Part shown: piece after piece, positions 24,309 to 24,436 of the stretch
How positions within the stretch are numbered: position 1 is the stretch's first letter
How the letters are laid out: the number at the start of each line of letters is the position of its first letter
Source of the DNA: Microbacterium halophytorum
GTDB taxonomy: Bacteria; Actinomycetota; Actinomycetes; Actinomycetales; Microbacteriaceae
DNA length: 64,000 bases
Assembly: GCF_002970975.1 (NCBI RefSeq)
Contig: NZ_KZ672982.1
Coordinates: 124,001-188,000, forward strand
Direction: 5' to 3'
Translations under genes and position numbers: made by a program
The notes under the pieces: generated by a model
The model's input: the letters and a program-made list of their open reading frames with translations, nothing else
Told to the model about the DNA's origin: nothing
Databases searched by the model: none

Positions 24309-24314
24309 TACGCT
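24309..24314 (+). promoter_or_regulatory. Leaderless -10 box of the leucine leader peptide
   Basis: TACGCT, then 6 nt, then the GTG of the leader peptide. The transcript probably starts at or next to this GTG. Confidence 0.55.
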
Positions 24315-24320
24315 GGTCCG

Positions 24321-24374
24321 GTGAGCTTCCGCGGCCTTCTCCTCCTTCGCAGCCGCGACGAGACCTCGATCTAG
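24321..24374 (+). CDS. leuL: Leucine attenuator leader peptide (four consecutive Leu)
   Basis: 17-codon reading frame starting GTG and ending TAG, reading [17 protein letters not shown]. Four consecutive leucine codons (CTT CTC CTC CTT) directly upstream of leuA are the hallmark of ribosome-mediated attenuation. The stop lies in the loop of an 11-bp hairpin that begins about 10 nt after the last Leu codon. Leaders of this kind are known before leuA in actinobacteria. There is no ribosome site, but a -10 box 6 nt upstream predicts leaderless translation. Confidence 0.8.
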
Positions 24375-24406
24375 GGCCTTCTCGTCGCGGAGTCTCCTGC
24401 GGGCCC
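24353..24406 (+). promoter_or_regulatory. leuA attenuator: mutually exclusive RNA hairpins
   Basis: Hairpin A: CCGCGACGAGA (24353-24363) pairs perfectly with TCTCGTCGCGG (24380-24390). A rival pairing, GGGCC (24374-24378) with GGCCC (24402-24406), uses bases inside hairpin A. A ribosome stalled on the Leu codons would cover or free the left arm of A. No T-run is visible, so termination could be Rho-dependent or the control could be on translation. Confidence 0.65.
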
Positions 24407-24436
24407 GAAACATCCCCGCCGCGAAAGAAGAAGACG

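Follow-up and report, generated by a model that had tools for sequence, protein, structure and literature searches.

What controls leuA in Microbacterium halophytorum? The question is raised by a locus in a 64,000-nucleotide stretch of this genome (contig NZ_KZ672982.1, positions 124,001 to 188,000), which we call the window and whose own numbering is used below. Just upstream of leuA lies a frame of 17 codons with four leucine codons in a row, and an initial annotation left it open whether control is exerted by Rho, by intrinsic termination or on translation of leuA. Leucine-rich leaders, which it mentioned as known before leuA in several actinobacteria, were described by Seliverstov et al. 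(2005; PMC1262725) as the LEU element, from a genome set with one member of the Microbacteriaceae, Leifsonia xyli. The window element belongs to this known class and is not a new one. Since 2005 the LEU element has been an element whose codon mutants were reported off expectation and for which a binding protein was proposed; the comparisons made in this study favor sensing by the ribosome. From these comparisons, we think it rather likely that the window element is a LEU element acting as a translational attenuator, in which a tiny leucine-rich frame probably unlocks leuA in leucine shortage. Its parts are as follows.

24306-24314, + strand: extended -10 element TGC-TACGCT, from the sequence, with TACGCT itself at 24309-24314
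24321-24374, + strand: leader frame of 17 codons with a GTG start, the putative transcript 5' end, and stop codon TAG at 24372-24374
24336-24347, + strand: sensor codons CTT CTC CTC CTT, which with 24348-24350 are also the 5' strand of helix P1
24336-24340, 24343-24344 and 24346-24350, + strand: paired bases of the P1 5' strand, from a duplex computation
24353-24363, + strand: 5' arm of hairpin P2, CCGCGACGAGA, from covariation (11 pairs)
24380-24390, + strand: 3' arm of hairpin P2, TCTCGTCGCGG, from covariation (11 pairs)
24374-24379, + strand: 5' strand of pseudoknot helix P3, GGGCCT, inside the P2 loop, from cognate versus non-cognate pairing
24401-24406, + strand: 3' strand of P3, GGGCCC, 3' of the P2 hairpin, from cognate versus non-cognate pairing
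24421-24433, + strand: 3' strand of P1 (24421-24425 and 24427-24433), which covers the purine-rich leuA ribosome-binding region AGAAGAAG
24437-26188, + strand: leuA, with its ATG at 24437, encoding 2-isopropylmalate synthase, the regulated gene (NCBIfam NF002991, E 4.5e-267)

The leader reads GTG AGC TTC CGC GGC CTT CTC CTC CTT CGC AGC CGC GAC GAG ACC TCG ATC, and the last base of its stop codon is the first G of the P3 5' strand (24374). The closest named relatives of the window leuA are from Microbacterium species. The leuA frame is open upstream as far as a GTG at 24305; automatic annotation could call the start too early and swallow the leader.

A leucine leader with predicted leaderless initiation is conserved before leuA

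The leader, with its GTG at 24321 six nucleotides after TACGCT, lies exactly where the initial annotation had placed it. We compared it with leuA upstream regions from relatives, named contigs and phylum, order and class samples (fetched in part), which after removal of five duplicates gave 323 distinct loci. A loose rule, which asks for at least three leucines in four codons, allows TTG starts and requires no promoter, detects a leucine-run leader in 306 of the 323; a few of these (e.g., L124 and L309) look like chance leucine-rich frames and were kept in the 306. The sequence TAnnnT stands 5 to 8 nucleotides before the start in 257 of these leaders and is missing at this spacing in 49. A strict leaderless rule (ATG or GTG 6 to 7 nucleotides after TAnnnT, 7 to 32 codons, at least three leucines in four codons) finds a leader in 238 of the 323 regions versus 4 of 3230 shuffles. 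In the window's family (f1, to which L031 to L110 were assigned by record title), 107 of 108 loci fit this rule, duplicates included. Among the 105 distinct loci of this family, TAnnnT lies 6 or 7 nucleotides before the start in 104, and across all families TGn precedes the -10 in 120 of 239 loci. In a frame-blind test, usable for 239 of the 323 loci, the pyrimidine tract proved to be in frame with the promoter-set start in 209. The leader stop codon falls inside the P2 loop in 280 of 286 loci. (The 306 leaders supplied 286 loci for the counts of P1, stop codons and T-runs and 296 for those of P3; the others had no strong P2, no P3 or no usable start.)

A consensus scan found no promoter with a -35 match here. 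Because the -10 is conserved at 6 to 7 nucleotides, initiation is predicted to be leaderless, and a leucine-responsive leader of this kind is well supported by the comparisons. The initial annotation had equated the leader start with the transcript 5' end; this claim gains the conserved spacing of the -10, and the 5' end itself stays a prediction.

Seven of the 17 leuA loci with no detected leader fall in family f4 and two in f53, and the other eight carry what by eye is a seemingly degenerate element. In f4, a small-genome family, no leader was found by rule or by eye in the last 230 nucleotides (L232, L234, L236, L237, L238, L241 and L243), and the element seems to be absent. One locus (L099) is a Microbacteriaceae-like leuA with the full element on a contig filed as a metagenome-assembled genome of Acidobacteria, which is probably a binning error. 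Of 296 genomes drawn from across the phylum, 42 gave a match at E 1e-4 to a covariance model built from 60 leuA elements, and 35 of these belong to the window's class.

Covariation supports a pseudoknot of P2 and P3

Folded on its own, the window element is not unusually stable (z -0.99), which is uninformative; the evidence for the element is therefore comparative. No Rfam 15 covariance model matched the window element at its gathering score, and none matched in 10 relatives up to E = 1.

The 11-bp hairpin that the initial annotation located at 24353-24363/24380-24390 is present with all 11 pairs. When 60 sequences are aligned on sequence alone, 97.7% of P2 cells are paired and 6 of the 11 pairs are changed on both sides, with 44 double-sided changed cells versus 11.4 in shuffles, a value of 44 being reached in 0 of 500 shuffles. 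When the partners are slid by 1 to 3 columns, only 36 to 69% of cells pair. With 186 sequences, 1993 of 2046 cells are paired and 156 are compensatory (shuffled mean 26, maximum 37). Repeated GGCC throws the sequence-only alignment of P3 out of register (734 of its 997 cells are paired and 63 are compensatory, versus 22 shuffled), and P3 was therefore judged by cognate versus non-cognate pairing. Kinship was handled in these group tests only by averaging within families, which gives 47 groups: the families and four loci set apart (L099, L107 and the second leuA copies L133 and L134). In 45 of 47 groups (p 1.6e-9) the P2 loop forms a stronger pairing with the downstream strand of its own locus than with the strands of other families, and the reversed-strand control gives 29 of 47 (p 0.03).

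A competition between the right arm of the hairpin and a GGGCC/GGCCC pairing, which the initial annotation had proposed, does not survive: 24374-24379 and 24401-24406 share no base with 24380-24390. P2 and P3 can therefore coexist, forming an H-type pseudoknot, and each has the support of covariation. Mutual exclusion of P2 and P3 was tried as a candidate and ruled out, the strands having no overlap and both helices covarying. Across relatives each helix covaries strongly, and the pseudoknot is conserved. The initial annotation had staked its reading on leucine codons and hairpins being conserved in relatives, and both are kept.

The leucine codons may serve as sensor and lock

In the window the leucine run forms with the leuA ribosome-binding region a computed duplex, P1, of -12.5 kcal/mol with interruptions. 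Over the 47 groups the run pairs at -10.6 kcal/mol with its own ribosome-binding region versus -9.2 with those of others, the cognate pairing being better in 34 groups (p 6e-6), and real pairing is better than the mean of 12 leucine-run shuffles (155 loci) in 30 groups (p 0.003). In a comparison of 46 groups (235 loci), the mean group difference for P1 is -1.43 kcal/mol (34/46, p 6.7e-5). Other helices examined in this comparison were rejected. Pairing of the P2-P3 linker with the region before the Shine-Dalgarno site (-0.83, 33/46, p 0.0055) is barely above its controls (-0.68, p 0.095, and -0.73, p 0.053), and pairing of the P2 5' arm with the linker gives -0.44 (26/46, p 0.11).

The choice of codons in the run is peculiar. 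The last leucine codon of the leader is CTT in all 103 leaders of the window's family and in 156 of 183 in other families. Within the leader runs of the window's family, CTT makes up 58%, CTC 26% and CTG 15% of leucine codons, versus 1.7% CTT, 39% CTC and 57% CTG in the leuA genes of the same family (103 loci); CTT is 2.3% of leucine codons in the leuA genes of other families (57 loci, f10 to f19 left out). Runs of CTC-CTT resemble the 16S anti-Shine-Dalgarno sequence CCUCCUU, and the tract can therefore pair with almost any ribosome-binding region. The bias may also have another origin, a single isoacceptor tRNA that decodes CTT as well as CTC. Leucine codons that are mostly CTT or CTC, against the codon usage of leuA, and that also lock the ribosome-binding region would indicate a specific design, in which sensor and lock of leuA are the same nucleotides.

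The leuA element would then work as follows. Transcription would start at the leader GTG, where a ribosome would initiate with no Shine-Dalgarno site. When leucine is plentiful, the ribosome would translate the whole leader, terminate at the stop codon inside the P2 loop and depart, after which P2, P3 and P1 would fold and the leucine codons would pair with, and hide, the leuA ribosome-binding region. When leucine is short, the ribosome would stall on the leucine codons; because these codons are the P1 5' strand, a stalled ribosome would keep P1 open and leuA would be translated. The leucine codons would thus serve as an anti-Shine-Dalgarno sequence, and stalling on them would free leuA. What comparison among loci brings out is the leader, its frame, a conserved -10 spacing and the helices P2 and P3, with weaker evidence for P1; from these parts we infer in what order the events take place, which way control runs and that it acts on translation. 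Control at translation is favored because the leucine codons covary with the leuA ribosome-binding region.

Several observations weigh against this mechanism. Reversed strands of P1 still score in 28 of 47 groups each (p 0.10 and 0.07), and one leucine-run shuffle does so in 33 of 47 (p 5.6e-4). The run covers the ribosome-binding region unspecifically, in 266 of 286 cognate versus 271 of 286 non-cognate combinations, and in the window alone 23% of the ribosome-binding regions of other families pair equally well or better with the run. Before leuC, where the scaffold recurs (see below), P1 and P3 are weak (p 0.04 and 0.07). Craster et al. (1999, via PMC1262725) found that changes in the Streptomyces coelicolor leuA leader had some effect, but not as expected of classical attenuation, and PMC1262725 concluded that leucine-codon mutations had no influence on regulation and inferred a binding protein. 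Because reversed and shuffled controls also score, base composition accounts for some of the P1 signal, and pairing of the leucine codons with the leuA ribosome-binding region has moderate support. The double role of the codons could explain the paradoxical S. coelicolor mutants, as such mutants alter sensor and lock together.

The scaffold recurs before other genes with other sensor codons

In the window genome the model built from leuA elements has three strong matches (E 3.3e-9 or better; the next best is 0.004): the window leuA, a second leuA copy and leuC, the last identified by NCBIfam. The two outside the window are the following.

G000:C6:155139-155211, - strand: element of the second leuA copy (L134, L330), a model match with leader MFVRALLLLRRHGGA
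G000:C1:408207-408277, - strand: leuC element (L331), a model match with leaderless leader MRATLLLRRRGGSTS

The second leuA copy is 55% identical to the window leuA over residues 3-462, and its P2 differs from that of the window by paired changes. By eye, two frames adjoin this copy on the other strand, one like a GntR regulator and one like an acetolactate synthase.

A second covariance model, from which the sensor codons were omitted, was used for other genes of the pathway. It matches 26 of 30 leuC loci of the window's family, a set of the window genome and 29 others, one per genus, that are the best 30 of 57 genomes with a match (60 searched). A leaderless leucine leader is found in 24 of these 30 and in 29 of 35 when five model-matched loci are added. 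Outside the family, the second model matches 0 of 29 leuC loci, the best 29 of 48 genomes with a match (49 searched).

Before leuB, the second model matches 8 of the 57 best-scoring loci (three repeats of a genome left out); two of the eight are query genomes and three (G117, G308 and G334) were known from earlier model matches. A search of 38 selected genomes added two more, which makes 10 in all, from several families (L415, L416, L420, L429, L432, L433, L434, L436, L439 and L450). The codons before P2 in the 10 loci spell VYVLI, VRIL, IFVL, LIL, VLVLI, LLVI, LVVI, LVIL, VLVLI and LVLI, with leucine and isoleucine in 10 of 10 and valine in 9 of 10. The -10 spacing is 9 to 10 nucleotides in 7 of the 10, and a few untranslated bases may therefore precede the start codon of these leaders. 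An ilvE-like gene lies 3' of leuB in two of the 10, one recognized by eye and the other from a below-cutoff fragment match to a branched-chain aminotransferase model. At L415, L429 (in the genome of L371), L439 and L450, a small frame of about 20 to 45 codons lies between the element and leuB; by eye these frames resemble one another toward the C terminus (for example ALQESMDRRDQG, AVQEAMDRRDNGG, ALQMALDRRDNGG), and the one examined has no NCBIfam match.

In family f19 the scaffold stands before a stand-alone LeuA-domain gene at three loci, with codons LVV (L374), LLV (L373) and VVV (L414, where the script found no leader start). One of the f19 products examined passes Pfam LeuA_dimer and the other weakly matches only the C-terminal part of the 2-isopropylmalate synthase model (E 0.002); the L414 product was assigned to the LeuA domain by eye. 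No description of leuC or leuB elements was found among the matches listed in the open literature, a search that most subscription papers lie outside.

We give even chances to a wider view, in which actinomycetes have a modular attenuator and the LEU element is one of its settings: a P2 and P3 scaffold, a leaderless or nearly leaderless frame and sensor codons specific to the gene, which before leuA are also the anti-Shine-Dalgarno strand. The sensor sets in this scheme would be leucine only (leuA and leuC), leucine with isoleucine and mostly valine (leuB), and leucine or valine (LeuA-domain genes). If the leuC and leuB elements work like that of leuA, three leucine-pathway genes and an ilvE-linked operon come under one type of RNA control.

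Alternative explanations

The comparisons narrow the choice that the initial annotation had left among Rho, intrinsic termination and translation. They show no intrinsic terminator and, in the covariation of P1, favor translation, which leaves Rho as the alternative to weigh. Rho-dependent attenuation seems to us unlikely on balance. In it, whether Rho terminates transcription within the leader or shortly beyond it would depend on translation of the leader, or of leuA, and the pseudoknot might uncover or mask a site for Rho loading. This would fit the absence of an intrinsic terminator here and the scarcity of T-rich tails (at least five T in the 9 nucleotides after P3 in 4 of 286 relatives and after P2 in 39 of 286), and PMC1262725 suggested Rho for similar cys leaders. 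Rho leaves unexplained, however, both the covariation of the leucine run with the leuA ribosome-binding region and the restriction of the run mostly to CTT and CTC. Rho-dependent control could also act as well as, or instead of, translational attenuation.

The proposal of 2005, in which a regulatory protein (orthologues of the helicase ML1624) binds the element and the leader frame is incidental, we hold to be quite improbable. The compact pseudoknot is conserved, and leader-codon mutants were reported to be without the expected effect (PMC1262725), both of which agree with a protein site. However, protein binding would need neither a reading frame kept in 209 of 239 loci nor a shift of the sensor codons from leucine only to leucine, valine and isoleucine before leuB. 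Ribosome sensing is favored over a protein site because the frame is kept and the sensor codons are swapped with the downstream pathway gene.

Classical transcription attenuation, with P2 or a related hairpin as an intrinsic terminator, is more improbable still. Leucine codons with a stable GC-rich hairpin do suggest it, as do the 39 relatives with a T-rich tail after P2. As the initial annotation noted for the hairpin, however, no T-run follows, and 24200-24560 of the window holds no terminator-like site; runs of at least four T within 12 nucleotides follow P2 in 14 of 286 loci and P3 in 4 of 286. A terminator and antiterminator would be mutually exclusive, whereas P2 and P3 have no base in common and each shows covariation, and the alternative helices examined are barely above, or equal to, their controls.

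A direct action of the leader peptide, whether it arrests the ribosome during synthesis or works as a free peptide, is scarcely credible: the pattern LLLxSCRDE looks conserved in the window's family, but in the codons that follow the leucine run the first and second positions vary, and it is the third, paired base that mostly stays the same (codon +4 for D, G or S is GAC in 132, GGC in 106 and AGC in 17 of 286 loci, and serine at codon +1 is AGC or AGT in 150 of 150 loci with serine there), which marks RNA pairing and not a peptide.

Comparison with known systems

The LEU element before leuA and a leaderless leuA leader in Streptomyces lividans are already known. A short frame with leucine codons upstream of leuA and a conserved pseudoknot characterize the LEU element (PMC1262725), and the window has both. 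PMC1262725 names leuA only, with a transposase fragment in Bifidobacterium longum, and favors a binding protein; our analysis favors ribosome sensing. To that description we add, from sequence comparison, the leaderless spacing, the codon choice, covariation in about 290 loci, and the leuC, leuB and LeuA-domain genes.

The leuA leader of S. lividans, LeuL1 (MRFGLLLLSCRGEGL), is leaderless and lacks a typical terminator according to data on transcription start sites (PMC8079986, in excerpt). It is a leaderless leucine leader before leuA like that of the window, from a different family, and the excerpt makes no mention of a pseudoknot. A leuA leader is also listed for Corynebacterium glutamicum (excerpt of PMC4046766) and for Corynebacterium diphtheriae, where no transcription start site could be assigned (excerpt of PMC5784534). 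The ilvB leaders of Corynebacterium, Mycobacterium and Streptomyces likewise carry branched-chain sensor codons in a short frame, and those of C. diphtheriae and S. lividans are given as leaderless in the same excerpts (PMC5784534 and PMC8079986). For ilvB, terminator hairpins followed by U-runs were reported (PMC1262725), unlike at the window, where none such was found.

A parallel in logic lies in Mycobacterium smegmatis, whose leaderless cysteine frames are described in PMC13236596 and PMC9031893 with the same control as we propose for leuA. In these mycobacterial polycysteine attenuators (Canestrari et al., 2020, via the same two papers), the speed at which the sensor frame is translated controls translation of the next gene. 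They sense cysteine, whereas the window element has leucine codons.
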